Of a stretch of 64,000 bases of DNA, positions 7,636-45,684 are shown one piece after another. The notes beneath the pieces are model-generated. The model saw only the letters and a program-made list of their open reading frames with translations. It was not told the origin of the DNA and searched no databases. A program made the translations under genes and the position numbers. Origin of the DNA: Mytilinidion resinicola. Its lineage: Eukaryota > Ascomycota > Dothideomycetes > Mytilinidiales > Mytilinidiaceae. The stretch spans positions 254,615 through 318,614 of the forward strand of contig NW_022985468.1 in NCBI RefSeq assembly GCF_010093595.1, written 5' to 3'. Within the stretch, counting starts at the first letter, position 1; each line of letters begins with the position of its first letter.

Positions 7636-8727
7636 CTAAGAGAACCAGCTCCACGAGCTCCCTTTCGCCGTATTCTTGTTAGGTTGCATTTTCGGAGAGA
7701 ATTGATCGTGGCCAGGGCTAAACACTTTGCAAGAACCGCTGTAGTAAGCGCAGCCAAGTTCCAGGAGGGAATCTCCTAAAACTCTCAGGACGCGTTGTGG
7801 GAATCGGAAACCAAGCATGTTCAGAAAAGTGAACCAGGGCCAGACGATGGCCCATGTCCCAACCCAGAGTATGAAGAGGAAAGCCAAGAAGCACAGAACC
7901 AGAGCGATTGGGACGAGGGGGTTCTGGGGAGCTTCGTAGAAAGCTTTGCAGAGTCCCTGGTAAAGAGAGGTTGTTAGGCTGGCAGGGCGGACGGTTGAGG
8001 GTAGAATGCCGTTGGTCATGACATTCGAGTTGGCAATGGGGACGGGGACTACGGCTCCGCTTAGAGCACCGCTCGGTGGAGCATTCAGGTTCGCAACGGC
8101 GACTGGGACTACGGCTCCGGATAGGGTACGGCTCGATTGGGTGTTCGCAATGGGACTGTTAAGGTGCTGCATTTCGGAGTTCGCGCGCTCTGCAATCTGG
8201 CGGACTCGCTTTGGGTCTGAGAAGATATCACAGTCAGTTAAATTGCCAGTGCTACTAAGAGTACAAGGTTTTACGATACCGGGACTAGGCCATGTAGTCT
8301 GGATAGCCCGACGTCTACTGTCGAAGCTAGACGGGCTTTCAGGATTGATCTCGCTCGAAGCCTCAGAGGACTCTAAGGCGGTAGCATGAGAACCCCCGGG
8401 TGCTGTGGAGGTGAAGGAAGAATCATTGGCCCGATCTCTAGCAGTATGTGCTGCTCCAAATCGGACGATGCGCTTGTCTTGGCTATCCACAGGCGTATGA
8501 AGACCTTCGGGGCTTGATGTGTCGGACGATCCGATGCCGGGCGACTGATTCTCGGCGGAAGGAGAGAAGATGGTCCCCTTGCGAAGGCGACCCGGACCAC
8601 GTCTCGTCGCAGGTGTGGGAGATTCCCCATCTACTGGAGACGGAGTGACTAGCAGCTTACGGGCCGACATTGTGGCAGGGCTGCTCGTGGCGGTCGAGCG
8701 AGCTTCTTTCTTGGTCATGTTTGGCAT
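7636..8727 (-). CDS. Disordered protein with C-terminal membrane helices, unknown
   Basis: A single-exon frame of 363 residues from the ATG at 8727. Residues 1-240 are Ser/Thr/Pro-rich and probably disordered, with a GRRxRK-like patch (RRGPGRLRKGT). An internal repeat is visible twice: LSGAVVPVAVANLN and LSGAVVPVPIANSN (about 205-245). A long hydrophobic stretch follows (LVPIALVLCFLAFLFILW, then WAIVWPWFTFLNMLGF), suggesting two membrane helices or a hairpin. The short polar tail has two Cys (CAYYSGSC). The layout could suit a nuclear-envelope or ER membrane protein with a long cytosolic tail, but that is inference. No family recognised. Confidence 0.6.
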   Translation of the reverse strand: MPNMTKKEARSTATSSPATMSARKLLVTPSPVDGESPTPATRRGPGRLRKGTIFSPSAENQSPGIGSSDTSSPEGLHTPVDSQDKRIVRFGAAHTARDRANDSSFTSTAPGGSHATALESSEASSEINPESPSSFDSRRRAIQTTWPSPGIVKPCTLSSTGNLTDCDIFSDPKRVRQIAERANSEMQHLNSPIANTQSSRTLSGAVVPVAVANLNAPPSGALSGAVVPVPIANSNVMTNGILPSTVRPASLTTSLYQGLCKAFYEAPQNPLVPIALVLCFLAFLFILWVGTWAIVWPWFTFLNMLGFRFPQRVLRVLGDSLLELGCAYYSGSCKVFSPGHDQFSPKMQPNKNTAKGSSWSWFS

Positions 8728-21693: not shown

Positions 21694-23300
21694 GGGGGAA
21701 TGGGATGTGTGGAGCTAGAGAGCAGGTTTCTGGGCGTGGATATCAGGCTTCGTTTTGACTGACTAGTCATCTACTATCTGGGCTGCTCCTGACAGCGGTG
21801 TCGAATGAACAAGCCTGGAGCCCGAGTAGTCGTATATCTAGGCACTTGTACATACGTTATTGCAGTGGAAATCAGCCTGCTCTTGGCCGATCAGCCACCT
21901 ACTAGCTGGGCTGCTCTTGACGTTGGTATGAATTGAGGAATAGTACAGCCTAAATAGAGATATCCGCGCGTATCCATCTTTATGTTCATGCGTTGAATTT
22001 AGACTACCTCTTGACTGGTAAGTCACCTGCGAGCTGAGCTGCTCCTGACAGCGGTATCGAGAGAGCAAAACTAGAGTCTGAGCAACCATATATCCATGTA
22101 CCTTTACCTCTACTTGTATCAATGCAATAGAAATCAGACTGGCTTTGGCTGACCAGCCACCTGCTGGTTGGGCTGCTCCTGGCGGTGGTATCGATTGAAC
22201 AATAACACAGCCTGAAGAGGGATATATCCGAGTATCTATTCGTATGTCCACGCACAGAAAACCAGACTACCATTTGACTGCTTAGCCACTGCTACCTGGG
22301 CAGCCCTTGACAGTGGCACCTAGTAAGCAGCAGTACGTACGACTTGACTGGTGGTATATATGAGCATGTGGAGTTGTAGAGGATTGTGCGGGATTTGGAT
22401 TCTTAGGGGTTGAGATGAAGCTACCTTTTGACTGACTAATTAACTGCTGGCTGGGCTACTCCTGACGGCGGTATAGAATGAGCAGGAGTAGAGCATTGAT
22501 AGAAATATGTCCGACCCTTCATCGTCAGGTTCATGCATTGAAAATCAGACTACCCTTTGACTGACCAACTGCCCGCTAGTTGGGCCACTCCTGATGGTGG
22601 CATTAAATGAGCAAGAGTATGGTTTCGTCGGTGGTATACCTGAGTGTACGGATTTAGAGGGGATTATCCGGGATTAAGTTCTCGGTCATGGGAATTGGGC
22701 CCCCTATTGATATACCAGCTAACGGCTAGCAAGGCCACTCCTGACAGTGATATTGAGGGAGCAAGATTGAAGCTGAAACAACTAGATACCGTACGTTCAT
22801 CTTCTGCTTCGTGCAGTCGAAATCGGTGTACATTTTGGCTGGCTAGCAACCTACTCGCTGGGGCAGCCCTTACAGTGGCATCAATCAAGAAAAATTAAAC
22901 CCCGGCGTAGTACGGTATCCTTCATACAATAGAATCAAACTGCCTTTTAACCGACCGAGTGCCTCCCAGCTGGGCTATCCCTCACAGCGCATTTAAGCAT
23001 GCAAAGCTGTAAAACACGATGTAGAAGTTAATACACTACAGATCAGATGACTTTTTGACGGACTAGTAATCTGCTAGCTAAGCTCTTCCTCACGGCGCTA
23101 TTGAGCATGCAAAAGTGTAGAACACGATGTAGAAGTAAATACAGTGGAGATTAGAGAACCTCTTAGCTGACCAAGAATCTACTAGTCAGGCTCCTCTTCG
23201 CAGCGGTATCAAGCATGCAAGTCAAAATGAACGATATTAAGATCAATGCAATAGGAATCACACAACTTCCTAATAGTGTCAAGGACAGTTGGAAAGATCA
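21694..23300 (+). repeat. Degenerate tandem array, about 12 units of 107-157 bp
   Basis: Each unit contains a block like CTTTTGACTGACTAGCCACC, then GCTGGGCTGCTCCTGACAG, then GCGGTATCGAATGAGCAAG, then a GATATATCC-like block. Core positions (GGGCTGCTCC-type) are about 21779, 21905, 22035, 22167, 22296, 22453, 22580, 22727, 22858, 22969, 23076 and 23186. Units are diverged from one another and spacing varies. The last three have a shorter 3' part with AAGCATGCAA. Related copies lie at 9055-9165 (same strand) and 30230-30590 (opposite strand). No ORF spans the array. Confidence 0.8.
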
Positions 23301-25158: not shown

Positions 25159-25378
25159 TTGACTTAGGGCGTTGATAATCTCACACCCCCTAATTCCTCC
25201 ACGCACACCCCCTTTTCGCTATTCGCACACCCCCTCCCCCCCTAGTCGTTTCACCGCCTTCCTATTGGCTCGGAGCAGCGCGGAGCTTTCTCCGGGCATT
25301 CACCTATACGTTTATATACACGTGATGCTATACGCGAGGCCGTATGTAAGGCTATACAAATTGGAAAGAATGCGCTAT

Positions 25379-25410
25379 AAAATGGAGAGGCTGTATAGCC
25401 TCTCCATTTT
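25379..25410. other. Perfect hairpin, 14-bp stem with 4-base loop, inside element 1
   Basis: AAAATGGAGAGGCT, loop GTAT, then the exact reverse complement AGCCTCTCCATTTT. It could be a transposase-binding or fold-back structure, or a transcript terminator hairpin. Confidence 0.7.
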
Positions 25411-25582
25411 ATACAGCCTTGCGTATAGCCTTATGTACAAGCTTATATATAGCCTTAGGTACAAGCTTACGTTTCTATTCTAGAAGTGCCTACGTGCCTA
25501 TAAGTATGCCAAATCCGTTAAACCCTTACTATATTACGGCTCCTTTGCATCGAGCCTGGCCCCCTAGCATCGCCGCCTACAC

Positions 25583-26125
25583 CTACTCTTTACCCTGATT
25601 AATATACCCCTTAATTTCCTTATTATACGCTGCAAGCTGACGTAGAAGCTCCTCTCGGCTAAGCCTCTGTGCTTGAGGATGAGGCTGAGGCTGAGGCATA
25701 GGCTGAGGCGTAGGCTGAGCGCTATCTTGCCTCTGAGCTCGTGCCTTTTTCCGTGGTACCTTATCCTTTGCATCAGGCGGCCGACCGCGCTTCTTAGTTG
25801 TAGGTGCAGCTGTAGGTGTAACCGTAGGCGCTGCTGTATGCGCTGCCGTAGGCGCTGCCGTAGGCGCTGCTGTATGCGCTGCCGTAGGCGCTGCCGTAGG
25901 CGCTGCTGTATGCGCTGCTGTATGCGCTGCCGTAGGTGCTGCCGTAGGTGCTGCCGTAGGTGCTGCCGTAGGTGCTGCCGTAGATGCAGCTGTAGGCCTA
26001 AGAAGGGCTGGATCAATACGAGAAAGATCAACCGGTGTAGCTGTCGACTGATAGGCATTCCGAGCGTCAGGAGCTGGACGAGGGACTACAGAAATAGGCG
26101 GTGCTGGCGGCGGAGCTGTCGGCAT
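25583..26125 (-). CDS. AT-hook protein with Ala/Pro/Thr repeat, encoded by element 1
   Basis: 180 residues from the ATG at 26125. The N-terminus is Pro/Ala-rich (MPTAPPPAPPISVVPRP). Residues about 45-110 are a tandem repeat of TAAP/TAAH four-residue units encoded by a 12-base DNA repeat (about 25800-25985). Then comes KKRGRPPDAKDK (about 113), a textbook AT-hook for the DNA minor groove, followed by a basic patch and a Gln/Pro-rich stretch, ending in a helix (REELLRQLAAYNKEIKGY). It is not a transposase; DNA binding is inferred. The opposite-strand frame, which reads as Cys/Arg repeats, is a shadow. Confidence 0.65.
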   Translation of the reverse strand: MPTAPPPAPPISVVPRPAPDARNAYQSTATPVDLSRIDPALLRPTAASTAAPTAAPTAAPTAAPTAAHTAAHTAAPTAAPTAAHTAAPTAAPTAAHTAAPTVTPTAAPTTKKRGRPPDAKDKVPRKKARAQRQDSAQPTPQPMPQPQPHPQAQRLSREELLRQLAAYNKEIKGYINQGKE

Positions 26126-26516
26126 GCGTCCTGGAGGTATGCTCGTATGTCCACTCTGTCTGGTTTACTACGGTATTTTGCTAGGCCGTAGCCCCGCGCT
26201 GATGCGTGCGCTTGTAAAGCAATATGCGCTTCCTCTGCTGTAGCGTAGTACGCCAGCCGTGGCGGCTAGAGGGCCATGGTGAGTGTATTGTAGAGGGAGA
26301 GGAAGAGGATGTAATTGATTGCGATCAAGGCCGCATTTGGAGAGAGCATTTGGAATTAGTGAGCAAGTTAAGCGAGCGAATCGGAGGCTCCGGAACACCC
26401 CTCCGAGCCAATAGTAAGGCGGTGAAACGACTAGGGGGGAGGGGGTGTGCGAATAGTGAAAAGGGGGTGTGCGTGGAGGAATTAGGGGGTGTGAGATTAT
26501 CAACGCCCTTGACTTA

Positions 26517-26689: not shown

Positions 26690-29400
26690 TTAATCCTTCC
26701 AGAAGTCGTCATCGTCGTCGTCGGGGAGGGCATATTTAGACAGCTCCTGCGCCTCCGCGAGTATTTCCTCCGCAGAGAGGCTAGGGGGAGGCGTTACAGG
26801 AGAAGCGGCAGAGCTAGAAGCGGTCGCAGAGGGTGCAGCCTGCTTGGGCGGATGCGACACCGAACTCTTTGGTGTGGCTTTGAGCTTGGCCTCTGTACAA
26901 ACGCCTTCTCTCAGCATGGCGGCGTTTATCAAAGGGCCAAATGTTTCTAGCTCCTTGACCAATTCTTTGACCAAATCCTCCCGTGGCTCTGGGAAATTAT
27001 CCACCACGTTGTACAGTTCAAACAGAGCCGTTGGACTCCAACTCCAATGACTCCACTCGACTTCAGCTTTGTTCAACGGAATATTGTCCGTCTGTATCGC
27101 CTTGTTGGTCTCGCGGAGAATCGCTAGCAGGCTGCGGCCCGGGCTCTGGCAGTCCACGCTGTCGGCAATATTATTCAGAATGTCTTCGCAATACAATTCT
27201 GCGCGTCTGCCCTTGCGTCCGTAGTAGTCTAGATTCTCCCCGTGCAACTTGGCCTCGGCCGTGGTATAATGTGGAACTTCCGCGTCAGATGGTTGCGAAC
27301 CGCTCTGCGCCTGTGCCTGCACCTGCGATTCCGTTGACCGATCGACAGCTGGTGTATCACCAGCTTTGGACTGGAGCTGTTGACCAAATGGGAGGGAGAG
27401 TTGATGGAGTGTCGAAGGTTGCTGTTCTTCTTGGGTGGAAGTGGCTTGGGTGGGCGGTGGCTGCTGCTGTGGCGAGTTCTCTACCATGGCACATGTGCCT
27501 GTAGTGTTCAATGCTGTCTGGAGACGTCCCACAAGTGTCTCCAGCTCACGACCAACTTCTAGAAAAAGCTCCGACTGATAGACTTTGGCAGTTCCTGCCA
27601 TCTTTTGAAGCAAAACATTAAGCTTTTCCGGAGACCACTCAATCCACTCGACCTCGCTGTTATTCAGCGGCGTGACATCCTTGCCTAGACGGTCATTCGC
27701 TTCGCGGAAGAGTTCCTTGAGAGTATAGAGGCGATCATCATAGTCTTCGTTGGTATCCAATTTCTTGGATAGCTTCCTGCGATCAGTGCGCACAGCTTGG
27801 CGTTTGCCCTTCAGCCAAAACAAATTGTCTTTATGAATCTGATGTGATGTGTTCTGCGGGATATTTGGGAGGAAAGGCTGCGGTTCTGGTTGTTGATCGA
27901 TATCCATACAGTCGGAGTCCACGAACGAGTTTGGAATTGAACTTGTTCCAAGGCTATGTCCAACGCTCAGAGGCGCAGAAACTGGACGAGGAGGTACCGG
28001 AGTTGATGGAATGTTTTCTTCGATAGATGGCTGCGCGGTTGGCTGCTGCACAGAAAAGCCAGATCGCATCTGAAATTCCTGCGAGCCTAAAATCGGATTC
28101 CAGGTGCCGAAAACATGGTTCTCTTGCTTGATGTAGCATAGCCCAGGGGTCTGACGAGCCCTAATGCAGTGTTGGGCAAGGCGCTCCAGAGCTTGCGCCA
28201 GGTTTTGGGCGCGCGGGTCGTCCATGCTCGTGGCAATGGTCCGGAAGATGGTCTGGAGATGTTCCCAAGGCCAATTCAGCCACTCCAGCTCTGCAGCATT
28301 GAGGTCCGTCAAGTGGCTGTCCAACTTGGCGACCGCCGCTGTGATTGCAGTGGCAAGCATACACATCGGCCAAGTACAGTCTTGGCCACGATTGAAATTC
28401 TTCTCGAAATTGCCGATGTGTTCATTCACATGATGCCTCTTCGCAGCGACCCATTGTAACGCCTTCGTGCGGTCTTTCCTGGCTCGTGTCTCGCGAAGCT
28501 TCTCCCCGAGAGAGAGCAAGGCGGATGGAATAGGGTGCGACGAAATGCTATTGGATGCGACCCCTGGTAGTATTATGTTAAAATGATGAAAAGGTTGAAG
28601 ATATGCCAAGCCACTTACCAAGAGAATGGCCGAAGTGGCTGGTGTTGCTATCCTTTGTAACAGGGTACTTCCCCATTGAGCCAAAGTTCTGGCTTATCCC
28701 ATAATCCTGTGTAGCCGAGTACTTCCCCATAAAGCCGAAGCTCTGGCTGACGGGGGCCGAATAAGGGGGAGACGACGGACCAAATGAGAGACCAGTTGAT
28801 CCGACTGAGGGCAAACCAGAGAGAAACTGGGACGGTGGCGAGGGGGGAGGCGTTGGGGTTTGGATTGCCTGGCTCACGTTGGGGCTCTTGGGCGAGAAGC
28901 ATAGAATTCCTCCTAATATCACAAGTAAGTCAGCATGAATTAGGAACGACAAAGTGTAGGAGAGGAGAAAAGGGATGAGTGTACCTGCTACAAAGGGTTT
29001 GACGTAGGAATAGGCCTCCCAATCTATATATTGATTAGACGTTGCTGCACTATGTGGACAAGAATCTACGAAATACCTATAAGTCCCGCCTCATCGTGGT
29101 ATGTTAGCCATTTATTGACCTCTTCGCCGGTATGCCGAAGGATACTCTTCATAGTCGTAATTAGGTAAATTTGGAACGTCTGGCAAAAGCTAGAGGCATT
29201 CGGTAGATCCCTCATGGCGAGATGGAAGGCGTCCGCGAACGTAAGGTCGGCAGAGCGCATACCGAAGAGACCTCCGAACAAGGACATTTGCTGTAACATC
29301 GTATTAACATTGCGACAAATTGCACGTCGGCGAGGTTATAGCGCCGCGAAGGGAGCAGCATATGGCAGTTCACCCACGAGTAGGTAGCACTTACAGACAT
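26690..29400 (-). CDS. Large modular protein D (three copies of an unrecognised ~115-residue module)
   Basis: Five exons, 29400-29395, 29290-29077, 29023-28985, 28912-28619 and 28563-26690, give 808 residues. The first exon is only ATGTCT. Exon phases (0,1,1,1) match gene C. An N-terminal helical region (SADLTFADAFHLAMRDLP...DWEAYSYVKPFV) is followed by a Pro/Ser/Gly-rich linker with PTPPPSPPSQF. Three modules then follow. Each has about 50 residues of charged helix, a signature (DLNAAELEWLNW about 271; TPLNNSEVEWIEW about 482; IPLNKAEVEWSHW about 679), about 40 residues of helix, and a closing G-x-C (TPGLCYI, TTGTCAM, REGVCTE). Linkers are Gln/Pro-rich. The C-terminus is acidic (PDDDDDDFWKD). 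No known domain recognised. The composition suggests a nuclear scaffold or regulatory role, which is inference only. Confidence 0.8.
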
Positions 29401-29574
29401 AGTTGGAGACAGTGTATAATGTGTATCAGGGAGGAAGTGTTGTGATGGAGGAACCGGTGGTCTGCCGGAGTGACGTGGACGCGGAGGCTTGGTTGCGCAA
29501 GTAGCGATGCAAGAAGCAAGCGGTTTGAAGCTGTGTGGTATGCTGGAGTTGAAGGCGCTGGTTGGTGTCACGTC

Positions 29575-29770
29575 GATGTACCGGTGTGGTGGTGGGGAAA
29601 AGAAAGTTTTGATTGTCGGCGCGAGGCTGGCTTTAATTTATGGGGAGAGGCGGGCGTGGAGCTGCGCCGGCCGGGGTGCACGGCAGGAAGGGGACGTGAA
29701 CGGCTGGAGACGGATAGCAGACGGAGTTTTCCATTCACATTCACCACCTCGCGCTCCTGGGTGCTCGTGA
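29575..29770 (-). promoter_or_regulatory. Gene D upstream region, homologous to the gene C upstream region
   Basis: On the minus strand CTCCAGCCGTTCAC, GCTCCACGCC and CACACCGGTACA occur in the same order and similar spacing as at 37435-37580 before gene C. ACACCGGTACA lies about 185 bp before the D start and about 196 bp before the C start. Shared promoter or leader control is inferred. Confidence 0.6.
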
Positions 29771-30229
29771 TGTCACGATAGGGGGTGGAGGTTGAGACGT
29801 CACGTGCCCTCCAGAGCAGCCACGCTAGGTCCATAACTTTAACCCCTCCTGAATACTGTTGAGAGTGTATATAGATAGACATAAAAGGGGTAAATCGTTA
29901 CTGTACAATGACCTTATCTCTGCTGCGACCTACCTTAGTGGCTTCAACGACCGCCTGTGCGAAAAGCAGAGGAAGCGTTGTTGCTGAAGATAGTCCGATG
30001 CAAACAGGGGAGAAGAACGCATATCCTGCAAAACTTCACTGACAACACTTCAACAAACTAAATATGCGTTTAAGGGGACATGTGTCGTACGTCTTGTTTT
30101 GTTGGATATAAGATGTCTCAGAAGACTACACCTGGTGTGTACGGCGTACATTAATAAGTCATAAGTCTATGCACACAGATATGCCGCTGCATGGGCCGCA
30201 GTCCTGCTCTCTCGATAGCACTGTGGGAT

Positions 30230-30590
30230 GTGGCTAAGCTAGCGGGCAGCCGGTAGTCAAAAGGCAGTCTGATTCTTACTGTGTGAACCTTTGGATTGCG
30301 TTGGAGTCCTAATAAAGTCAGCTACACGGAAACGTCCCAACTTAAGCGATACTTCGAAAATTGATACCACTGTCAGGAATAGCCCCGTTGTTAGGTAGCC
30401 GGCTCGTCAAAAGATAGTCTAACTCTGGCTACATCGACTTTGACGTTGATTTTCTGTGTCCTGAGTTTCAGCACACGGAAATAGCAGTGCTGAAGGTAGA
30501 CTTTTGCTTACCTAATACAAGTGTCAGGGGGAGCCCAGCTGTTACGTAGCCGGTCGATCAAAATGCAACCTGATTTCCACTTTATGGACG
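30230..30590 (-). repeat. Three reverse-oriented copies of the ~130-bp repeat
   Basis: The reverse complements at about 30240, 30370 and 30520 contain AATCAGACTGCCTTTTGAC-type blocks and GGCTATTCCTGACAG or GGCTCCCCCTGACA-like cores, matching the 21.7-23.3 kb array in opposite orientation. Confidence 0.65.
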
Positions 30591-31166
30591 ACCCGGGGCG
30601 CAAGGTTTGCGACTATTACGAAGCCACCGCAAACAGCCTTTAAATGACACGCCAAGAACCGTTTCGCTGAGAACTAAAGGATGCTCCAGGGTGGAATGCG
30701 ATACTTCTAGAACTCGCACGTCGTTTGATTAGCATGACGGAGATTATATGAGAAAATACGGAGAGATGTGGAATCAGGGATAGTCTTTGGAAGCATGTCG
30801 TCGACAAAGGAAATAATGGGACATTAATGACATGAGCTCGGCCTGACTTTTCTATCTTGACTTATACACGATGCTATAAAGGGCTTCCGAATCGTTGCTC
30901 TGGATCCGAAACCCAATTTCAAGCCTGGGCTGGCGCGTCCCAACACGAACGCGCGTCTACCTTTATGTCCAAACGCTTGAGACGAAAGCAACCTTACGGT
31001 GAAGTGAATAGTATGTTTTGTCTCGGCGCGTGGTAAGTGACGTGGCCGGCTCCGTCACATAGTGTTTATGTACGACTTGCTGCTCCCTTAAGCTCCCAGC
31101 ATCGTCGCCACCACCATTGCCATTACCACAGTTCCGCACCCCCCGACCGTCCTTTCAATCGCAACA

Positions 31167-31875
31167 ATGAACTTACTTCGCGGAGGGTATCACCAGCCTC
31201 TTCATCTACAAGACCTTGAATGTGAACGAGAAGAACAATGCCGGCGTGCTGCAGACCGCAGCGTTTAGGGTTCTCCTGAACTGCCCAGAGCTCTTGGAGC
31301 AGATTCTCCTCTTCCTACCCCTTCCGAACCTGTTCGTCCTTCTCCGCGTGTGCAAGCTGTGGCACGAACTCATCGCAACATCGCTTGCCATCCTCCGCAA
31401 AATGTTCATCCTAGCGCCGAATACAGGTGTCCTGACTCCTCGAGATGTTGTCCAAACCACCATGAAGATTCAGTACAACCCCATCTTCACCCCCGAGGAC
31501 CTCTGGTACGAGGGCCATTCGCAGAGAGCGCTACTGCCAATCATGCACCGTGGAGCCTCTCTCTATCACCAGAGAGGTAACCACTGGGTTTTCAGTTGGC
31601 CAATCGACAAACTCGTCTTCCCTCGTTGGAAACATGGCCAGCCGCCATCTCTGATTGAAACTTGGCGCAAGATGTTCCTCACGCAGCCGCCTGTCTCTGT
31701 CGTGAATATATGGGTTTGGGGTCCGGCATGGCTCTGAAGAGGACGTCAGTGGCATCGTGTCGTGACGGTCAGAAACCAGAAGGGAGTTACAATTGGCAAC
31801 ATTCTAGAGGAAGCAATAGGCTGGCTGGACTCGTATTGGGGGGATAATAAAGAGAGACGAGGAAGGAGGTACTGA
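31167..31875 (+). CDS. Small F-box protein, possibly interrupted
   Basis: Exon 1 is 31167-31186 (MNLLRGG) and exon 2 starts at 31269 after a GTATCA...TTTAG intron. The join gives LLNCPELLEQILLFLPLPNL, FVLLRVCKLWHELIATS, a clear F-box at about residues 8-45. In frame the second exon meets TGA at 31735, but a family-like C-terminus (VTVRNQKGVTIGNIL) continues after it in the same frame. It can be reached by removing a 48-bp GTGAAT...GTCAG intron (31702-31749), phase 0, giving 192 residues ending at 31875. Either that intron is real, or TGA is a nonsense mutation (CGA to TGA). By family knowledge it is a Skp1-binding substrate receptor; target unknown. Confidence 0.55.
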
Positions 31876-33307
31876 AGGAGACTAGGAAGCTTTCTGAGTG
31901 GATCAACCTCAATCTCATCGGCCCGACGGAGCTGCTACAACTCGATGCTTACGGTTGGTCTTTGGTTGCGCCCGGGCAACCATCAGGGGTCGGGGAGGAT
32001 TGACCTCCATCGCCGACGAGCTCGCAAATTAGAGGTAGATACAGAATAAGCTGCTACCAACCACTCAATGTTGAGCAGCTCTCCAACGTCGTAAGGAGAG
32101 TCTTGGGACTATTAGAAGTTGGATTTCGATCAAACTAGACTCGAGGATATTGGATGAAGGTGGGTTCTTTGATGGAGGTTTATCCTTTGCAAAAATTCGA
32201 AACTTAAGTATCTGCGGAGATGTAATGTGGGGTTATTTGATAATTATGGGCCTTACGAAAGCCTTCAATAAAAGATCAGTCAGCTAATATGACCCTTGCG
32301 TTTGCCATCATTGTGTCTTTACGACCCTCCAGGCCGTTTTGAACTAGGGCCTTCGTAAGAGCAGGGGAGCTTCGACACCAATGCATTTGTCTGGATAGGC
32401 GCCATTTTGGTAGGTGACGCCGATGCACTTCCATAAGAAGTTCAGCAAAAATAAACCTTATTAGATGGATCTGCGAAGGCGATGGCGGATATCCACGAAA
32501 CCAACTCGGTTGCTGATAGAACTCCGCGTTAAGTCTCATGACATCTACTATAATCTTGTGGATTTTAATAATTGAAGACTCCACCTTGCTCGCAGTACCC
32601 TTTGAGTGATACCGCGGCATTTCTTCCGCAAAGTCGGCTGACATCTTGAGTTTTGGTAGAGCTGATTCGGAACACTTAGGTACAGGCACCTGACGGACTA
32701 GAAGAGGACGCGCGATGTCGGTTGCAAACGGGAATCACAAAGTAAGGTTTCTATCATGATAGCTATACGTTGTAAAGTTCCAAGGGAAGACATCAAAGTA
32801 GATGGAGAAAGGAGGCATGTCGTCTTGAGTGCCGAGGATTCGGCCCCACCTTTTTTGAGTCTAGTCTCAAAGCGGCCCAGTTAAACGAGGCCAGCGGTCA
32901 TATATCGGACTAGTCTACATTTGACGCAACGTGGGAGTACTGTTTCATACTCTATAATCAGTCACACTACTCTGCCTCTTGGGAACACATTCAGAGCTGT
33001 AGGATGTGTCCTCAAATGCGTTGAGATTGTCCTCTATAGCAGGTAGCCACGCGCCCACGTGTTCTAGCATGTTCAACGCTTGGCAAAATTACCCCGCTTG
33101 CATCACTCGATATCTACTCCTTCTTCTCAGCTCTGCTTCTAGGCACTAGACTCCTATGCACTAAACCTCTCCTTCAGATCTACTAAGAACCTTTTTCCCT
33201 TCAAAGTTCTTTTCTGAAGGCATTGTATTCCACCTACTTTACTAGACAGAGCGACGAGACTCGGCTGAGATACGATCCTCTAGGGAACTTCATCTAAGCC
33301 TAGAGAA
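31876..33307. other. Intergenic, 1.4 kb
   Basis: Apart from the weak candidate at 32276-32644 no gene is seen. About 33090-33300 is CT-rich and is the likely 5' UTR/promoter of the oxidoreductase. Confidence 0.5.
32276..32644 (-). CDS. Hypothetical 122-residue protein, weak candidate
   Basis: The first true ATG is 32644 (MSADFAEEMPRYHSKG). Composition is protein-like, with a helix-forming KIHKIIVDVMRLNAEFYQ and a basic stretch (RRHLPKWRLSRQMHW), but there is no known domain and no support from splice sites or neighbours. It could be a chance frame. Confidence 0.25.
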   Translation of the reverse strand: MSADFAEEMPRYHSKGTASKVESSIIKIHKIIVDVMRLNAEFYQQPSWFRGYPPSPSQIHLIRFIFAELLMEVHRRHLPKWRLSRQMHWCRSSPALTKALVQNGLEGRKDTMMANARVILAD

Positions 33308-34417
33308 ATGTCCGAACCGCAGAAGTTACGAGTTGGAATTATCGGAGCTGGAGAAGTCGCTCAAGTGATTCATCTTCCCGTCTTGTCTCTACTCTTCCAT
33401 CTCTACTCCGTCACAATTATCTGCGACATATCCGCAAAGAACGCCTCGCACTGTGCCGCAAAATTCCACATTCCAAAGTCCACCACCTCCGCCGCTGATG
33501 TCTATACCAGCCCAGACGTCGATATCGTCTTCATACTCACCTCGGACGAGTTCCATGCTGAGTATGCTATCGCGGCTCTGAAAGCTAGGAAGCACGTCAT
33601 GGTTGAGAAGCCGATATCGCTCTCCATGCAATCTGCGAAGAGGATCATTGAAGCAGAGAAAGAAGCAGGAGGGCCAAGGGTGTTTGTTGGGTATATGAGA
33701 CGCTATGCACCAAGCTTCGTACAAGCGTTTACAAGAGAGGTCGCAACGATACCGCGAGTGCTTTATGCTAGATCGCGAGACTTCAGCGGGCCAAACGCTC
33801 AATTTGTGTCGCAATCCGGCACTTTCCAGGTGCAAAGTACGGACTTCCCTCCCGGAGCAAGCGAGGAACGGACGAAACGGCTAGATGATCTTTTCGCAGA
33901 GGCTTTCGAGGGTCGAGAAGTCACGCTGGAGAAGAAGAGGTACTGCCGTTTCCTTGGAAGCTTAGGCTCGCATGACATCTCTCTCCTACGAGAAACTCTT
34001 GGATTTCCGGAGTCCGTTGCTGGCGTATCTGCAAATGAGCCGTTCTACTCGGCGATATTCAACTACAAGAATAAGTCAGGCGAGCCATTTGCAGTCACTT
34101 ACGAGAGCGGCATCGATGGCGTACCGAACTTCGACGCGCACCTTGCGGTCTATGGAGAGAACAAGCGCGTTCAGATACAATACCCATCACCCTACGTCAA
34201 AGGACTACCCATCATAGTCAAAGTTGACGAGTTGAATGAGAATGACGAGACACAGACGAGAGAGATATTATCATCATACGAAGACGCATACACTGCCGAA
34301 TTGAAAGAGCTTCACGCATGCATTACTCAGGGAAAGACGATCAAGACGTCTGCAGTGGACGCACTGGAGGACTTGACTATATACGACATGATGTACAAGA
34401 AGTATGAGGGGATTTGA
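33308..34417 (+). CDS. Gfo/Idh/MocA family NAD(P)-dependent oxidoreductase
   Basis: An uninterrupted 369-residue frame. The N-terminal Rossmann fold starts RVGIIGAGEVAQVIHLP (GxGxxx motif at residues 14-19). The family signature EKP is in KHVMVEKPISLSMQ (Lys about 99), and the C-terminal alpha/beta domain follows with HDISLLRETLG and YESGIDGVPNFDAHL. By family knowledge it oxidises or reduces a sugar, inositol or related hydroxyl/carbonyl substrate with NAD(P). The substrate is unknown. No signal peptide, so cytosolic. Neighbours are F-box genes and give no pathway hint. Length is typical. Confidence 0.93.
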   Translation: MSEPQKLRVGIIGAGEVAQVIHLPVLSLLFHLYSVTIICDISAKNASHCAAKFHIPKSTTSAADVYTSPDVDIVFILTSDEFHAEYAIAALKARKHVMVEKPISLSMQSAKRIIEAEKEAGGPRVFVGYMRRYAPSFVQAFTREVATIPRVLYARSRDFSGPNAQFVSQSGTFQVQSTDFPPGASEERTKRLDDLFAEAFEGREVTLEKKRYCRFLGSLGSHDISLLRETLGFPESVAGVSANEPFYSAIFNYKNKSGEPFAVTYESGIDGVPNFDAHLAVYGENKRVQIQYPSPYVKGLPIIVKVDELNENDETQTREILSSYEDAYTAELKELHACITQGKTIKTSAVDALEDLTIYDMMYKKYEGI

Positions 34418-34700
34418 TGATTGCTACTGGAGTTGTTCGCAAGCTAATAGAACGCCTTGATGCATCAAACTCTTCAAATCCAATCGCAGCCTCCTGCATT
34501 CTGGAGCGTATCAACGATCTTGAAGATCATCCAGATGTATCACCTTCGTTATCAGGCCCATATATTCGACAGGCACATGGCCCTTGTGAACATGTCGCTC
34601 TACGTATCACATACTAGCCTAAAACTGGCAATCATCGATGTTCAGATCGACTGTTTCTATCCATCTTCATGAACGATGTTCAGCATGGTGACTAAGCCTT

Positions 34701-35914
34701 TCATCTAATCTGCTTGAGCCAGTCTCGTCGATTATTGCGTTGTGCAGTATCGTAAATCAATCGCCTTTGTTGAATGGTCCAATCAGAATCTACAAGGTCA
34801 TGGTTCCAAAGTTCCTCCACTAGCATCCGAGACAGGTAGTGACGGCCGGGATATTCCTCCAACCCAAGCCAAACGAGGCACACTGTTCCCACCCAAGTAT
34901 GGTCTGTTGGTAATGAGCTTTTCCAGGACCTAGTGGCATGTAGCATAATCTGATCGAAAGTTTCGCACCCCACACGATACTTGTACATTTTTATCCTGCA
35001 ATGGCAGTCAATGGCCTTGCAGAGTAACTTCCCATACTCCGATACCTGCTACTGTTCATGGTCTCTCACCGAGCAAGGAAAATGCATGGTTTTCGGGTGT
35101 GTGTCTAGGCTTTGCTGTTGAAAGGCGTATTGTGGGCTTTGAAGCAACTTGATCAGGGCGCGTAGCACTTGGTCGTCCGTTGTACGAAGGTGCGGGCACG
35201 ACGGCTGGTCCAACCCAACAAGCGCTGCTGTAAGCTCCGCAACGGATTCTGAAGCCATGGTGCCACTGGGTATGCGCACTATCGGGAGCCACCATTTGCA
35301 ATAGAAGCTAGTTCCTCCGGCCTTCATGATGCTCTGACGGGGCAAAGGCGCACTTGACCAGATCCGCGGAGAAGATTCGTATTCGGTTCCAAAGAAGTGG
35401 TTGCGATGATCGGGACGATGACAAGAGAACATGTTGTCTGGCTCAAAAAACTCGCAAAGTTCAGCATACGTAAAGCTATGATGCTCGCAAAGCAAAACTT
35501 GTGTTCCATTCCTAGACAGCAGCGTTCAGAGGCAGAGGTTGACCTTTGTTGCACAGAGAAAAGATAGGCCGGATAGCGAGTACTGCACACACTGTACCAA
35601 ATGCGAAAACGAGGAGGCCGATTTCTGTAGGTCATTAGGAGTGGCCCTGGCAGCGCTAAGTCCTCTTTTGGTAAAGAGGAGAGGGGCTTTCCCTCTAATC
35701 TAGATATTTCCCAGTTAAATTCATTGAGTGGGAAAATTCCCAACTCCGGCAGAATAGTATATCGCAGCTTCCTGCGGCTTTGGCGTATCGCGAGCTTAGA
35801 TGTCGGCGAAAGGTGATTGGCGACCATGGAAAGGAGTTCAAAAGGCAGTACATAAAGAGCACTTTGCGTCGCGTTGTGGAGAGCTGCGGCCTTTCGGTCT
35901 GGGTATGATTCCAT
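34701..35914 (-). pseudogene. F-box-like paralogue B of gene A, inactivated
   Basis: Reading from an ATG at 35914 (MESYPDRKAAALHNATQSA) the product parallels gene A: VLPFELLSMVANHLSPTSKLAI, FPLNEF, IWYSVC, RCCLGMEHKF. A one-base frameshift in a TTTT run near 35492-35497 breaks it, and the next frame continues LCEHHSFTYAELC and YCKWWLPIV to a TAG at 35049-35051. After the TAG the same frame continues LLCKAIDCHCRIKMYKYRVGC and on to 34701, matching CKAVNCGCYF of gene A. Two independent lesions argue for a dead gene. An in-frame ATG at 36130 would add 72 Ser/Thr-rich residues. Confidence 0.8.
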
Positions 35915-37767
35915 AGTGCAAAAGGGAGCATAATTTTGCGGGCTGCCCTTGACATCCACTTTTCGGGAGTAGTCTCCATACTTTTGAGAAAGCGGCTTCT
36001 CGCGAGGGTACGGAGGCGTCTTGGCCGGCGTGGTCGACTCGATGAGTGTTGTAGCTGATGTTGTAGGAGTTGTAGTGTTCCACGAAGTCGCCAGAATCTG
36101 TGACGTGTCTAGACTAGACGATGGGAGCACTTATAACTTTGCTCGCGGAGGTGTTACAAAGATAGAAGGACGATTGAAGAAGAAACAGATCATATGGCGA
36201 GGAAGATGCCTGCCTCATCCGCGTCGCTCATTTCTCACAGCAAGGCGCGGTTGTCATCGAAGCCTTATCTCAAGCGAGAAAGGTGCTGTGGGTGCCTTGG
36301 ATTAGCTCGGGTAGTTCTATGATTCCACTTTTTCTGAACGCCAAACCACCCTGCCGCCGCCCCCTTCTTCTTTCCCTCAACACGGGTACATGGTCTGCAT
36401 CACTTCGACATCAGCATCACCTCGATCGGAGCATCCAAAATCTTCAGAATGCCAAAAAAAATGCCAAGGAGTTAACCCTCAGACACAAGCTGCAAAACAG
36501 CGTCCTACTCTAACGCCTTCATCGCATTTCGCCCTCTCGAACACGTCTACTTCGCCTGCCTCTAACTAACAAAGCTTCAACTCTATCGGTAAATATAAAA
36601 TTCACTAACAACGTTCAACAAACTCTAAAGAAACGCAACAGCGAATTGCCTCTTCTTTTTTTCAAATCTTGCTAAGACGCATTTTATGGCACAGACCTAC
36701 AGCCACCATTGACCATGCCGTTGAACACGCCATTGACCATCGCCCGTAGAGAGAGTTATGGGTGGGCAGAGTAAGGCCAGTGGTTCGAAAGTACAGTACT
36801 AGGTCAGCAACTTTGGCACAATGATGCCTTACGACTTGGGCTTTACTCACGCTCGCTCGACGACACCACTTCAAAGAGTATCCTAGCCAGCAGGTATGAG
36901 ATTGTCAAGAGTTAGTCTGATTTCCAATGCATCAGTCTCTGCATAGTACTTTGAGGCGACACCAATGTAAGTAATAGACCAACTATCAGGTCTACTGCAC
37001 GTCAAGAGCGGATATATTTTCTATAGAATCAATTATCACATGACGAGTGGATAACCCAAGCAGTCGTACGGAGTGCCCAGGTTTTCCGTCTTAGTACTGT
37101 AAGTCATAGAAACTCTAAATTCTCGTCATAATAATATACTCTCTTTGTATATGTGCTGTCAAGAAATCAAAAAGGAGTTGGAAAGATTGCAGGCGAGAAA
37201 TGCCCAGCACGTGACTCCCGACCTCAACCGCTATCAAATATACAAGGAGCTCGAACGATGCTTCACGACAGCTAGTATCAATCAAGTCCGAATTGTGAGT
37301 ACTGGCGTGATCTCGCGTATTACCCACCGTCTTTCACCGCGTGGCTCGAGGCTAGACCACCCTGCCCGTCCGTTCACATTCACCAACTGCTTCCCTCCTC
37401 ACGCCCGCTGCCTTCTCGCGCCGCCGTCTTTCATCCGACTCCAGCCGTTCACCTCTCCCGCGCGTCCGTGCACAGCGTCGTCGACTCCCGCAATCTAGCT
37501 CCACGCCGCCCTCCTGCCACGCATATAAAACCCAACCCACTCCCCGACAACCCAGACCTTCTTTCCACACCACACCGGTACAGCAAGATACGTTCACATC
37601 ACATTGTCAACTCCCAGTCTGCCATCTGCACTGTTCTCAGATGTCAGCTTAGCTCCAGCACAGATATTCTCTGCGCCACCACCATCGCGTCTCTCTGCAA
37701 CTCACCGGCTTCTCACACACCCAGAACTCTCCACTATCCTCCATCACCTTCATTCTACACATTCGAA
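35915..37767. other. 1.85-kb region upstream of pseudogene B and gene C
   Basis: No gene recognised; short frames lack features. It includes the gene C promoter (listed separately). Confidence 0.5.
37435..37767 (+). promoter_or_regulatory. Gene C promoter and leader, TATA at 37524-37529
   Basis: It contains CCAGCCGTTCAC (37441), GCTCCACGCC (about 37498), TATAAAA (37524), and CACACCGGTACA (about 37568), then a CT-rich leader. The first, second and fourth blocks recur in order upstream of gene D. Confidence 0.6.
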
Positions 37768-39924
37768 ATGCCAGTAAGTAATTCCCGCGTGCGCCTTGGT
37801 CGCCAAATTCTGTTATGCTCTCTTTCGCCTCGCGACATCTTGCGCAAGGAAATGAATACTGACACGACCTTTTAGCACTACTATGGTCTCCATACTGATA
37901 TTCGCGACATCTGCGCGCCTGTGCCGGACCTGATGGGCAAGCCCAGGATATCCTTCGAGCTGGCGCGTCAGGTCGTCAACCGTGGAGTCAGGAATTACAA
38001 CCTCTCCAACGACTTCATGTTGGCACGGGAGATGGCCGAGCTGCTGAAGTGCCGTCCTGAGGATATCTGGCGCGAACATGACTTGAGAAAGTCGATCGTT
38101 TGCCATCACATCATGGGATACGACCCGAGTGCCATCGCTGCGAATCATGACGGTACGTCGAAAACTCCTCTCCACGCCCATTGCATCTGTCTAATGAAGA
38201 AAAGTGAATGAGCAGGATGTCCGTAGCATCCTTCTATCCCCTGGAATTGCCTCGATCAATGGTATGCGCCACCCTCCTCTCTTATATTCTTATTCGGCTA
38301 TGAGCATTCATACTGACTCCCTTGCGACCTCAGGTGGCCTTGCCAACTCCCCAGTCGGCCATCGCCCAAATCCTTACGGATGTACTCTGTTCAACAGCAT
38401 GCCAGCTCTGCCTCTCACCCCACCCTCGTCCCCACAGTATGCTGAGCAGGATCTGGGAAGTATGGGACACCACAAAGTCACGAGAGAAGAGTCACCGCCA
38501 CTTGGCCCAACTGGGCAATCTCTCGGGCTCCAAGACTCGATGACTTCCGGTCTAGGTACGCTACATTCACCTGTAATTATGCTCCGTCTAACTCTATATG
38601 ATTAGGATACACCGCTTTACACGGCCAAGCGCTGAAGGAGAAGCAAAATCGAAAGGACCACAATACCCTCCTAGAATCTCTGAAAGAGAAGAAAGATTAT
38701 CTCGAACATCATCTTGCACTGTTTGTTCGCAAGTGGCTTGCTGGTAATGATTACAACACCGTCATGCACGACCTAGGTTCCTTTTTCGAGAGGGTCAACG
38801 GCTATCTGGACAAGGATCCAATTCCGCTTAATGACGATGATATTACTTGGCTTGATTGGCCTCTCGTGGATCTAGACGACTTCTTCAAGGTCCTTCTCAA
38901 CGAGGCGCATCCTGGGTGCCGCTGGATCGAAGCTACTAGTCTAGAGCTTCGAAAGCTCGGAGCACACATAGCCACGGCCAGGAATACTCCAGGTATATGT
39001 CTGCTCCGCGAGGGACCCTCATCCGCATCAGGTCATCCTGTCCAGGCACAGGCCCCGTTCACGCAGCCATATCCACCCCAGCACAGCTCGCAAACAGCAT
39101 CCATGTCAAATATCTTTGGGTATTTAGCTAAGCCCCAGACCACTCCCTTTTCTTCCGCAACCGAACAACAACCGGCACAGATTCATACCACGATGGAGGG
39201 CACTGAGGCCAATACGACTCCACAGTTGGCCGACTCCACGATAGAAGGCGGCCCGCTACCACAACCAGGCTTCCCTGGCACATTCGGACAGCCGCCACAG
39301 CAGTCGAAAGTTGCTCAGAACTCACCCTTCACCAACCCGATGCCAGGTCATCTAGGGTCTTCTCCATTTGGCCAACCCACAGCCCCGCAGCAGCCGAGCG
39401 GGTTCGAGCTCAACCCCCAGCAGAGTTCTCCGGACGCTATCCACGAGGCGTTCCTCACGTATGCGGAGCACAAATCCAAGGATCTCGTCAAAAGTAGCAA
39501 AGCGGTAATGAAGAGAATTGCCAACGGCAAAGCATACGAAGTTGAACTTCATGGCCTGTTGAGTGTTCTGAAGCAGAGCAGGAAAAAGCTCGTTGTTGAC
39601 AAGATACCATTGAATCAGGGGGACGTTGAATGGATTGGCTGGGATGTAGAGGCTCTCTTAGCCGTCGGTCAGGAACTCCACAACTTTGGTAGCCCTCGTG
39701 GCGATAACGAGGCCGGAAAGACCCTCGATGAGCTTACTGAGCTCATTCCGCGGTTACAGACCGCACTTCAGACACCAGGTGTTTGTGTTATGGTGTCCAA
39801 GCCCGCCCAGGATAGAGCTAGTGTTTCCACCAAGAGCCACCCCGCGCCTACACAGCCATTGCCAGCGAATACACGAGGTGGCCTTCCACGACGGAATGCT
39901 GGGCAGGCTTTCATGATGGTCTGA
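37768..39924 (+). CDS. Large modular protein C (two copies of the ~115-residue module; paralogue of D)
   Basis: Five exons, 37768-37773, 37876-38152, 38205-38261, 38334-38555 and 38606-39924, give 626 residues with the same phases as gene D, including a two-codon first exon (ATGCCA). The N-terminal helical region (ISFELARQVVNRGVRNYNL...CRPEDIWREHDLRKS..NEQDVRSILLS) could be a helix-turn-helix fold, but no known family is recognised. A Pro/Ser linker (PALPLTPPSSPQY) leads to module 1 (signature IPLNDDDITWLDW about 260, closing TPGICLL) and, after a Gln/Pro/Gly-rich linker with PFGQP-type repeats, module 2 (IPLNQGDVEWIGW about 521, closing TPGVCVM). Function unknown. Confidence 0.82.
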
Positions 39925-41895: not shown

Positions 41896-44601
41896 CTGTG
41901 TATTATCATATGGTAAGCAATATCCATTTCCCGTAATGGTGAGTTTCCCTTCCAATCTGTCGTTACGAACCAACGCCAATACCAAAATATTAATTGCAAT
42001 TTCTTTCCATTCTGCAAAAATTTTCCTCGAAACGCTTGGCGGGAGACGCTTCATCTCGAGTAGTAATAAACAACTTTGTCGAAATCTCCGTCACCTAATT
42101 GGTTCTAACTCCTGTGATCGTCTGGCACAATCTCCTTCCTCAGTGTCATTGCTCTCTGTAATTGTGCATCACCTTCAACGTCATTGCCCATACTCTTCAG
42201 AAGTTTGCCTTTCATGAACGCTGAACGAGATGCCTGGGGTTTATACCAAGGGGTATCCCCATAAATCTTAAGACTCGGTTCAAGGAGGCGACTGGAAAGC
42301 GTTAGCGCATGAACGCGAGGAGGCAAGTGAGCTGCATACTTTGCCTCATCTTTCTTTCCTGTTCTGATAAGCTGCTCTGCAAATCGGTAGCATGAATCGG
42401 CGGTGATGTAATGGTTATTACCGATGGTGGCGCGAAAGATTCCTAGAGCTCGCTGGAAAAGATCCAAGGCCTCGTTTAGGTTACCCTGCGAGCGCCGAAG
42501 GTCTCCAAGCACGTGCAAGACTTTGCCCGACCTTTCATAGTTTAGCAGTTTACAAGAACGAACGTTGAAGAGAAATTGAACACTTACACTATGGACAAGT
42601 TGGAATCCTTGCCGAATTTCTGCTCTCGCGCCTTCAATACTGGTAAGAGAATATCTTCCCCCTTTTGCCAATCAGCCGGATCCTTCCTCAGAGCGTAAAT
42701 CAATGCCAAATGCACGGCAGGCCACTCTTGTTCAATCAAGGTACTGCCAGGGATACCTCCAAACGCCTCATAAGATCTGGTCCAATCCGAAACTGCCTCC
42801 TCCTCTTTGCCAGGATCTCGCATTAGCGCCATCGCAGACTCGTTGCACGAATCAGCAAGCTAGAGCGCATCCTTCCTATTATTTCCATTTCTGCAGCCGT
42901 CCGACGATGAGATCGGTTATGATCTTGAAATGATCCAAAGCGCCTGGACTGGCAGTGTAAATGCGTGAGACGGCGATGTATTGGTAGGTCTGAGAGAGCA
43001 TGCGGTTGAGGCCTTCATCTTCTCTGAATGTCTCGGAGGGTACGTTATCTAGGACAGCAAGTGACAGGTCGGCATAAACTCCCATGACTGAATCGTGCGC
43101 TCTCTCGGTCATATACCTATGTATATTAGTATAATTCGACCTAGGTAGTAATATTTTCAGAATGAACTTGCCAGGCCACTTCGTTGAAAAGTGCTGCAGA
43201 GGCAGTTGATGGTTTGAACTTTCCAGATTTGATAGGCTCTTCAAATAGAGATGGGATCTTTTCAACATGTGGGAAAAGCTGTTCACACTTATGCAACCTT
43301 TCTAACTCGTTGCGTTCGTCAAATTGAATGAATGGCCATGAGTTCGAAATTAGGACAATAGTATTCTCATAGACTGCAAGAGTCTCCTCATCGGACAATC
43401 TTTCCCTTACAAGATCCTGGACTAGCCGGTGAATGCGTAGCTCGTTGTTCTTCATGTCCTTTGTTATTAGAGAACTGCTCAGGAGTTCAGTGCGACTATC
43501 AATATACGCGGAGCGGGACTTTGGATAGTCAGGAAGCTCAACACCATTCGTATCGCGAAACAGTAGACTTTCTTGGATTCTATCAGGATCAAGGAAAGAA
43601 AGAACTCGTAGAAGTGCGGTAGCTAACTTGGGAAGGGCTTCTAGCATCCAGACGGAAGAGACGGTTTGCATATAGGATCGCCTTTGGCCTGGAACTGCTG
43701 TATCATGTAATTCCCGGCATTTTCTTCATAGTAGGCGAGAAATTCTTCTAGAGACATGTGTCGACGCCGGGTGATACCGCCCATCTGCGTAATACCCGAG
43801 GGCAACCCTCCGAGAATCTCCACAATCTTTGTGCATGCCTCTAGACTGTTCTCCTCATATTCGCGATTGGAGAGAGATTGAAGAAACGGACCCGCTTCGT
43901 TGAGTTTGAAGGGAGCAAGATCGATGCTCAGGGAAGGTGAATAGACAGTGTCTTTCGAAAGAGGATTTCGACTCGTGACAATCACACAACCGGTGCCGGT
44001 GTCGGGCCAGAAATCGTAAAGGATGTTCGGATCGTCGGCGTTATCTAGAACGAGTAACCACGAAGCTTCGTCATTTGCCTTGGGTGTTCCTTGATTTGCC
44101 GTAATGATCGGGTTTGAGAGCCAACCTTTCACCCTTTCACGCCTCTCAATTTCGTCCTCTGGCGCTGACTCGTCTTCGAGACCAAGGGCCATTGACATTT
44201 CGGTGAATCCAAGGCTCAGCTTCTCCGTTGTATCTGCGTTGATCCAGAATACAGCATCAAATTTGGTTCTTCTAGAGAAGACGTACCACATAGCGACTTC
44301 GGTTTTGCCGATGCCGCCCATGCCGCAGATAACGCAGCTTCGAAGTCTTCTCAGTCCAGATTCCCCCGTGGACGGGCTTGCTGGGAAGAAAGTCTCATCA
44401 ATCTAACTCAAAATACCTTGCCTTCCATAAAACTCGTAGTTTTGAGCTTGCCCGCTGACCATACATACGGGTATCCAGCCACCTCTGACAGGTGAGTCAA
44501 AGTCGATGAGGTCCTTAAGTGCACTAGGAGGTAGCATGTTCGGCGACGGAGTTATTGGCGTCGCCGGTGTCTCGAGAATCACTTAGTGCTATTTAAACGG
44601 A

Positions 44602-45684
44602 ATTAGAATGGACGAGCTTATTTATCACCCCCCCTTTCTCTAATTATCACCCCCCTTTTCTCTATTCATCACCCCCCCTCGATTAGGCCTAGCTCCGGCC
44701 CGTATGAATATTGTTCCACCAATCAAACTCACTCGCTTGCCCGCTCGTGCTCAATACGGAATTTACATCACCTACGCACTCGGTTGTGATGCATCAACAC
44801 CACTTCCTCTACATCAACAGCCTCATCACCATGGCCCTCCGGGCCCCCCCTTGGAGCCGCTACGCGTCCGTAGAGGAGGGCATGAAGTCTATTAACACTT
44901 GGGCCAAGCGGGAAGGATACGCGATCATCAAATACAGCAAGAAAATGGACAAGCGCACGCCCCCTCAGGTGCGGAAAGTGCTTGTTCAATGTGATTATGC
45001 CGGCACCTATACGTCAGCCAGCAGGAAGCGGAACACCCATACAAAGAAGTCTAATTACCTTATGAAAGGAGCCTTCACGAGAGACCTACAAGTAGGTGAT
45101 TGGTTCTTTGAAGTTAATGTTTCTATTCACAATCACGAGCCGTATGATCCTGAGGATGGCACTCCAGCCGTGCATCGAGACGGTATGGATGAGGCTACAG
45201 TTCAGACAATACAGAATCAGCTCAACGGAGGCACGCCCGTAGGTGCTATCTTCAACAACCTTATCGCTGAGGGCCCTGAGGATGCCCCCCCTATGTCCAC
45301 GCCTGAGGAGGAGGCTGCTCGTAGTGAAGGAACCGGTGCAGCAGGAGGATATTCGGGTGTGAGGCCATGGTATACAGGCCTAGTCGGCGTTCCTTTCAGT
45401 CAGCAATTGGACGGTGGCCATCTAGGCACTTTCCGCTTCTAGACTAGCTAGAGTAGATAGAGCGAATAGACTCCTGTTGGCCTAGATAATGCATCCTTTC
45501 CCATTCGTGTATACATACTCTCCATTTTACGCAGCCTATACGGAGGCAAGCGAGTGAGTTTGATTGGTGGAACAATATTCATACGGGCCGGAGCTAGGCC
45601 TAATCGAGGGGGGGTGATGAATAGAGAAAAGGGGGGTGATAATTAGAGAAAGGGGGGGTGATAAATAAGCTCGTCCATTAGAAT
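44602..45684. mobile_element. TIR element 2 (1067 bp, MULE-like, 132-bp TIRs, 8-bp target duplication)
   Basis: ATTAGAAT flanks both ends (44602-44609 and 45677-45684). TIRs are 44610-44741 and 45545-45676, and by eye they are identical. They start GGACGAGCTTATTTATCAC and contain three TCACCCCCC motifs spaced about 21-22 bp apart. The single ORF encodes an isolated FAR1-like DNA-binding domain and no transposase catalytic domain, so the element is non-autonomous. Identity of the TIRs indicates a recent insertion. Confidence 0.9.
44831..45442 (+). CDS. FAR1-like DNA-binding domain protein of element 2 (MULE transposase N-terminus)
   Basis: 203 residues from the ATG at 44831 (ATCACCATGGCC context; an in-frame ATG at 44789 is an alternative). 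YASVEEGMKSINTWAKREGYAI begins a FAR1/WRKY-GCM1-type zinc domain with VLVQCDYAGTY, then HNHEPYDP, the His-rich end of this domain. The middle Cys expected in GCPF is replaced (YLMKGAF), so zinc binding may be lost. A VHRDGMDEATVQTIQNQL region follows, resembling the segment after the DNA-binding domain of fungal Hop/MULE transposases. The frame then ends in an unrelated Gly-rich tail at a TAG, without the DDE transposase core. It looks like a truncated transposase retained in a non-autonomous element. Confidence 0.75.
   Translation: MALRAPPWSRYASVEEGMKSINTWAKREGYAIIKYSKKMDKRTPPQVRKVLVQCDYAGTYTSASRKRNTHTKKSNYLMKGAFTRDLQVGDWFFEVNVSIHNHEPYDPEDGTPAVHRDGMDEATVQTIQNQLNGGTPVGAIFNNLIAEGPEDAPPMSTPEEEAARSEGTGAAGGYSGVRPWYTGLVGVPFSQQLDGGHLGTFRF

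Follow-up and report, generated by a model that had tools for sequence, protein, structure and literature searches.

Two kinds of described proteins come closest to those considered here: FG nucleoporins, which carry low-complexity stretches enriched in phenylalanine-glycine (FG) dipeptides, and the fungal proteins of the Mp1p/HsbA kind, in which low-complexity linkers connect ligand-binding domains that are helical bundles. Both invite comparison with two genes, here called C and D, that lie in a 64-kb window (the whole stretch of DNA analyzed) from the genome of Mytilinidion resinicola (Dothideomycetes, Mytilinidiales, Mytilinidiaceae). The products of these genes contain a repeated module of roughly 115-125 residues, which represents an undescribed domain family; its predicted fold, a helical bundle, is an ordinary one.

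The spliced products of C and D were found to be identical over their full length (100%) to NCBI records BDZ99DRAFT_527504 and BDZ99DRAFT_551300, respectively, confirming the coordinates and protein lengths proposed in an earlier sequence-only reading of this locus (table 1). The genes are divergently oriented, with 8.4 kb between their ATG codons. In both of them the first coding exon consists of just six bases, and four introns follow in the same order with lengths of 102/104, 52/53, 72/72, and 50/55 bp (C/D). Because C and D share this architecture and their proteins can be aligned (24% identity, E = 5e-24), they are paralogs, as had been proposed, and on sequence grounds old, long-diverged copies of one gene family. 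When the N-terminal part of C was used as a genome query, it matched itself only and D was not recovered; thus, homology of the N-terminal regions is unsupported up to about residue 150 of C. Exon 4 of D also contains a 45-nt direct repeat with 54-nt spacing (28650-28748, 82%), by which the peptide pattern [SN]FGxMGKY is repeated, and C carries a related stretch, QDLGSMGHHKVT.

Five modules, three in D and two in C, had been noticed in the sequence-only reading, and two more are present in the Lophium mytilinum protein BU16DRAFT_49729, the first of which is cut by the start of the record. When each of the seven was scored by a hidden Markov model (HMM) built from the other six, all were recovered at 54.0-118.9 bits, whereas the best of 2000 shuffles per module reached only 6.0-11.5 bits. 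Pairwise identity among the five window modules is low (18-28%), but their homology is beyond doubt since these scores far exceed the shuffles. All five are located in the last exons, except for the start of C1, where the codons of the initial three residues lie at and across the last intron of C. Within the module, the predicted order is a long helix at the start, then a second one, a short third, and two further helices, with a TPG turn at the end; core residues are invariant across six aligned module rows. The Asn of the PLN motif is invariant; directly after it comes the short helix, which carries a Trp (Tyr in one Lophium copy). The proposed signature [IT]PLNxx[ED][VIL][ET]WxxW is present in four of the five window modules but not in D1, which has TDLN instead of TPLN; similarly, the closing TPGxC occurs in three modules but is replaced by TTGTC in D2 and REGVC in D3. 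The order of duplication was not recovered in a module tree, in which two of four inner branches were open and long branches met.

Table 1. Positions of genes C and D, their 5' flanks, and the repeated modules within the 64-kb window
Feature	Position	Strand	Remarks
Gene D	29400-26690	minus	808 amino acids (aa); three modules; acidic C-terminus
Gene D, five exons	29400-29395, 29290-29077, 29023-28985, 28912-28619, 28563-26690	minus	
Gene C	37768-39924	plus	626 aa; two modules
Gene C, five exons	37768-37773, 37876-38152, 38205-38261, 38334-38555, 38606-39924	plus	
5' flank of D	29577-29724	minus	177-324 bp before ATG; matches C flank
5' flank of C	37424-37582	plus	186-344 bp before ATG; matches D flank
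Module C1	38608-39018 (from fourth residue on)	plus	residues 186-325; 76.2 bits with HMM of other six
Module C2	39424-39804	plus	residues 461-587; 118.9 bits with HMM of other six
Module D1	28121-28543	minus	residues 192-332; 64.3 bits with HMM of other six
Module D2	27473-27850	minus	residues 423-548; 90.4 bits with HMM of other six
Module D3	26879-27265	minus	residues 618-746; 62.4 bits with HMM of other six

Structure prediction for C2 gave a helical bundle (predicted local distance difference test score, pLDDT, 91.4; predicted template modeling score, pTM, 0.82). In the model of full-length C both modules show the same helix order as C2, with the first helix of C1 split in two, and residues 1-191, 323-459, and 585-626 fall below pLDDT 50. 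The linker of C is probably disordered, to judge from this model. The linkers between modules are rich in glutamine, proline, and serine (Q/P/S), in agreement with the Gln/Pro-rich linkers described before.

That no known domain would match the module was also borne out. Pfam searches at E up to 10, in which the filters of the tool drop most matches above about 0.1, found no family for C, D, or BU16DRAFT_49729. Single-module matches to DUF7188 (0.035), PP1_inhibitor (0.047), DUF4164 (0.13), and HisK_N (0.16) involved one of the seven modules each and were taken as chance. No solved structure or fold was a convincing relative. The best Z in a fold search was 9.4, whereas the tool gives 13 as the background level for helical bundles, and the matches to flagellar chaperones, ryanodine receptor, STAT, MukF, and glutathione transferases look like generic bundles. 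A profile search of PDB with the module matched 14 sequences, the best being the designed helical protein 9ugr (E = 0.00021 over about 38 residues, with no stretch passing alone; E = 0.11 with a second alignment profile, which was diluted by linker columns); these matches were taken as generic helix similarity. PDB searches with C gave seven matches, all at E = 0.58 or worse, and those with BU16DRAFT_49729 gave nothing at E up to 10. Helical bundles repeated along low-complexity linkers would suit a repeat protein of the Mp1p/HsbA kind that binds lipids or hydrophobes; yet the HsbA profile (PF12296) was unmatched by C, D, and all seven modules at Pfam E up to 10, and had no match in the M. resinicola genome. 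We regard such an assignment as very improbable.

Similarity between the C and D loci extends to their 5' flanks, which share 68.7% identity over 163 columns (blastn, E about 1e-8) and lie at a similar distance from the ATG in each gene; no other stretch of the two loci reached E = 1 in this comparison. Global alignment of the 400 bp upstream scored 237 against 139 +/- 12.3 for 200 shuffles (maximum 184), while the next 400 bp upstream (81 vs. 96) and the 300 bp downstream (71 vs. 62) were at background. Introns 1-3 exceeded all 200 shuffles (55 vs. a maximum of 43, 41 vs. 23, and 54 vs. 33), which may partly be explained by shared splice signals, and intron 4 was within them (21 vs. 29). Third codon positions agree at 24-35% between modules and look saturated; where residues are identical, their codons agree at 22-50% (9 of 32 for C1-D1). 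Conservation of the 5' flank alongside such saturation suggests either a stronger constraint on the promoter region or 5' leader than on the coding sequence, or homogenization by gene conversion. C and D are a case of paralogs whose 5' flank outlasted their coding similarity. The idea that the shared flank is a dispersed repeat was unsupported, each flank having matched itself only in the genome, although the sensitivity of these searches is limited because neither recovered the flank of the other gene.

These data also bear on the view that C and D are fast-decaying orphan genes or annotation artifacts without function. The low identity between copies and the few relatives found would be expected in that case. 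On the other hand, the frames are open over 440 and 667 codons with matching intron architecture, core residues are invariant while third positions look saturated, a relative occurs in another genus, and the 5' flank is conserved, all of which is hard to explain without selection. This view, too, appears to us very improbable.

The Lophium protein (458 aa, annotated as a hypothetical protein) matched C at E = 7.6e-57, with 36% identity across 83% of that part of C which was used as query. Lophium mytilinum belongs to the same family, Mytilinidiaceae, and the family of C and D is thus far known from these two genera. Its distribution may be narrow. Each protein search covered 5.8 billion sequences, of which only the 7990-7998 candidates sharing most words were scored. 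Among these, the search with C found C and the Lophium protein, whereas the module profile found C alone and D found D alone (E up to 10). The module-profile search thus missed the Lophium protein, although that protein was one of the rows making up the query and fell within the length range, and the D search missed both C and the Lophium protein. Because the searches miss even known relatives at such divergence, a restriction to Mytilinidiaceae is only weakly supported. In a six-frame search of the 47.1-Mb M. resinicola assembly, query C1 recovered four of the five window copies and queries D2 and D2+D3 all five, and no sixth copy was detected with these queries; beyond the locus the module recurs in the single Lophium protein but was detected nowhere else in the M. 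resinicola genome. The sequence-only reading had named failure to recur outside this locus as grounds for rejection, an outcome that is thus only narrowly avoided. A weak sixth match, given by D2 and by D2+D3 alike (contig C33:117264-117467, E = 1.03; 117258-117467, E = 2.65), covers about half a module and was set aside as chance; we take the frame there to resemble a multi-KH RNA-binding protein. Literature searches with the three protein record names and the prefix BDZ99DRAFT, and on the Lophium mytilinum genome, found no paper.

Comparison of FG dipeptides in the non-module parts with an expectation from shuffling, which controls for composition alone, revealed an excess in two of the three proteins. 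D contains 8 against 1.30 expected (P = 0.0002) and the Lophium protein 9 against 1.77, a count reached in 0 of 5000 shuffles; in 23 control open reading frames (ORFs; >=200 aa, mechanically chosen in the window and many of them probably non-genes), 24 were found against 18.6 expected. Six of the FGs of D lie in its N-terminal part (1.36 expected, P = 0.0002), two of these six coming from a short internal repeat. Eight of those in the Lophium protein are in the linker (1.29 expected) and one in the tail (P = 0.38). The linker of C alone has 3 against 0.76 expected (P = 0.027), and the N-terminal part of C and the tails of C and D have none. The suggestion that these are nuclear proteins retains a weak lead alone from the FG content of D, mostly N-terminal, and of the Lophium protein.

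Such stretches could indicate an FG-nucleoporin-like protein or a nuclear-transport accessory, whose FG stretches would either mix into the pore's FG phase or bind transport receptors while the bundles anchor it. The FG density in the non-module parts of the Lophium protein (3.33 per 100 aa) is indeed near that in the FG part of the partial Nsp1 frame of M. resinicola (3.43), and D reaches 1.94; both lie above the level expected from composition. However, C has just 0.84, the FG part of the partial Nup98-type frame of the same genome has 6.37, and the FGs of D are mostly outside its inter-module linkers. In addition, the module profile matched the Nsp1_C and Nup54 stretches of this genome with a probability of only 0.1 and 0.3%, and no nucleoporin anchor domain was found in C, D, or the Lophium protein (Pfam E up to 10; for Nsp1_C and Nup54 also by profile comparison). 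Nsp1_C, Nup54, and Nucleoporin2 are each matched elsewhere in the genome; thus, C and D are no stand-ins for those three. We consider a role of this kind unlikely.

The reading we favor, with about even confidence, is that the family of C and D acts as a multivalent intracellular scaffold or condensate-former. Each protein is built like a string of beads, with an N-terminal part that has no confident model followed by two or three predicted helical bundles on Q/P/S-rich linkers. Most likely each bundle docks a partner, and with several bundles along flexible linkers the protein would be multivalent. We infer the intracellular location, the binding role, and the multivalence; no clear signal peptide is seen on inspection by eye. 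In the sequence-only reading a multivalent scaffold was also suggested, and whereas its paralogy, repeat, and unrecognized domain stood, the scaffold fits the anatomy by inference. Several points weigh against it. The non-module parts of C show no significant FG excess (3 vs. 0.98 expected, P = 0.06), and the two linkers of D contain one FG each (P = 0.25 and 0.055). Confidence in the C2 fold depends on six alignment rows, and low pLDDT in full-length C is no proof of disorder because that model has a pTM of 0.29 and three alignment rows. Finally, no match stood out in the fold search, and helical bundles serve many functions.

A bolder version, that this is a family new to science, born in Mytilinidiaceae, which forms a lineage-specific FG-type nuclear or condensate scaffold and is represented here by a divergent pair with similar 5' flanks and proteins about 25% identical, seems to us improbable. 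If the FG lead were true, nuclear transport or condensate biology would gain a component specific to this lineage. Narrowly known fungal families are common, and as matters stand this is one more of them; what is gained is a helical domain family, hitherto undescribed, whose fold could be predicted with confidence from just six sequences.

Several other features were observed in the window. An element at 25166-26509, which terminates about 180 bp short of the 3' end of the D coding sequence, has inverted arms (76 nt at 99% complementarity and 45 nt at 93%) around an ORF (25583-26164). This ORF has no Pfam match; it contains a 12-bp tandem repeat, which encodes a PTAA-type stretch, and what we take to be an AT-hook-like motif. 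At 44602-45684, most of an ORF (44708-45439) lies between two 140-nt inverted arms that contain 22-bp subrepeats and are 99% complementary. The ORF has no Pfam match, and its product presumably resembles the DNA-binding part of a FAR1/MULE-type protein; the whole has the appearance of a non-autonomous DNA element that is short and recent. It is adjoined by an NB-ARC domain ORF on the minus strand (43641-44402). Degenerate direct repeats at 21734-23178 comprise nine copies of a 60-nt piece, with five of eight spacings at 128-134 nt, followed by a 108-nt tandem pair. Pfam identified F-box ORFs at 4846-5970 and 31171-31734; the ORF at 35324-36130, which has no Pfam match at E = 0.01, resembles the former by eye.

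Compared with Mp1p/HsbA proteins, C and D are similar in their helical bundles and, in the case of Mp1p, in having repeats on low-complexity linkers, but they differ in that no profile match was found and the structural similarity of the module is within background. With FG nucleoporins, represented in this genome by the Nsp1 frame (L020) and the Nup98-type frame (L022), the family shares low-complexity stretches, FG-enriched in D and the Lophium protein, beside helical domains, although the module shows no sequence relation to the Nsp1_C and Nup54 stretches and the FG density of D and C is lower. The closest relative found is BU16DRAFT_49729. Its record begins inside the first module, unlike C, and its gene model may lack the 5' part; it is also richer in FG than C, but likewise has two modules, joined by an FG/Q/P-rich linker.
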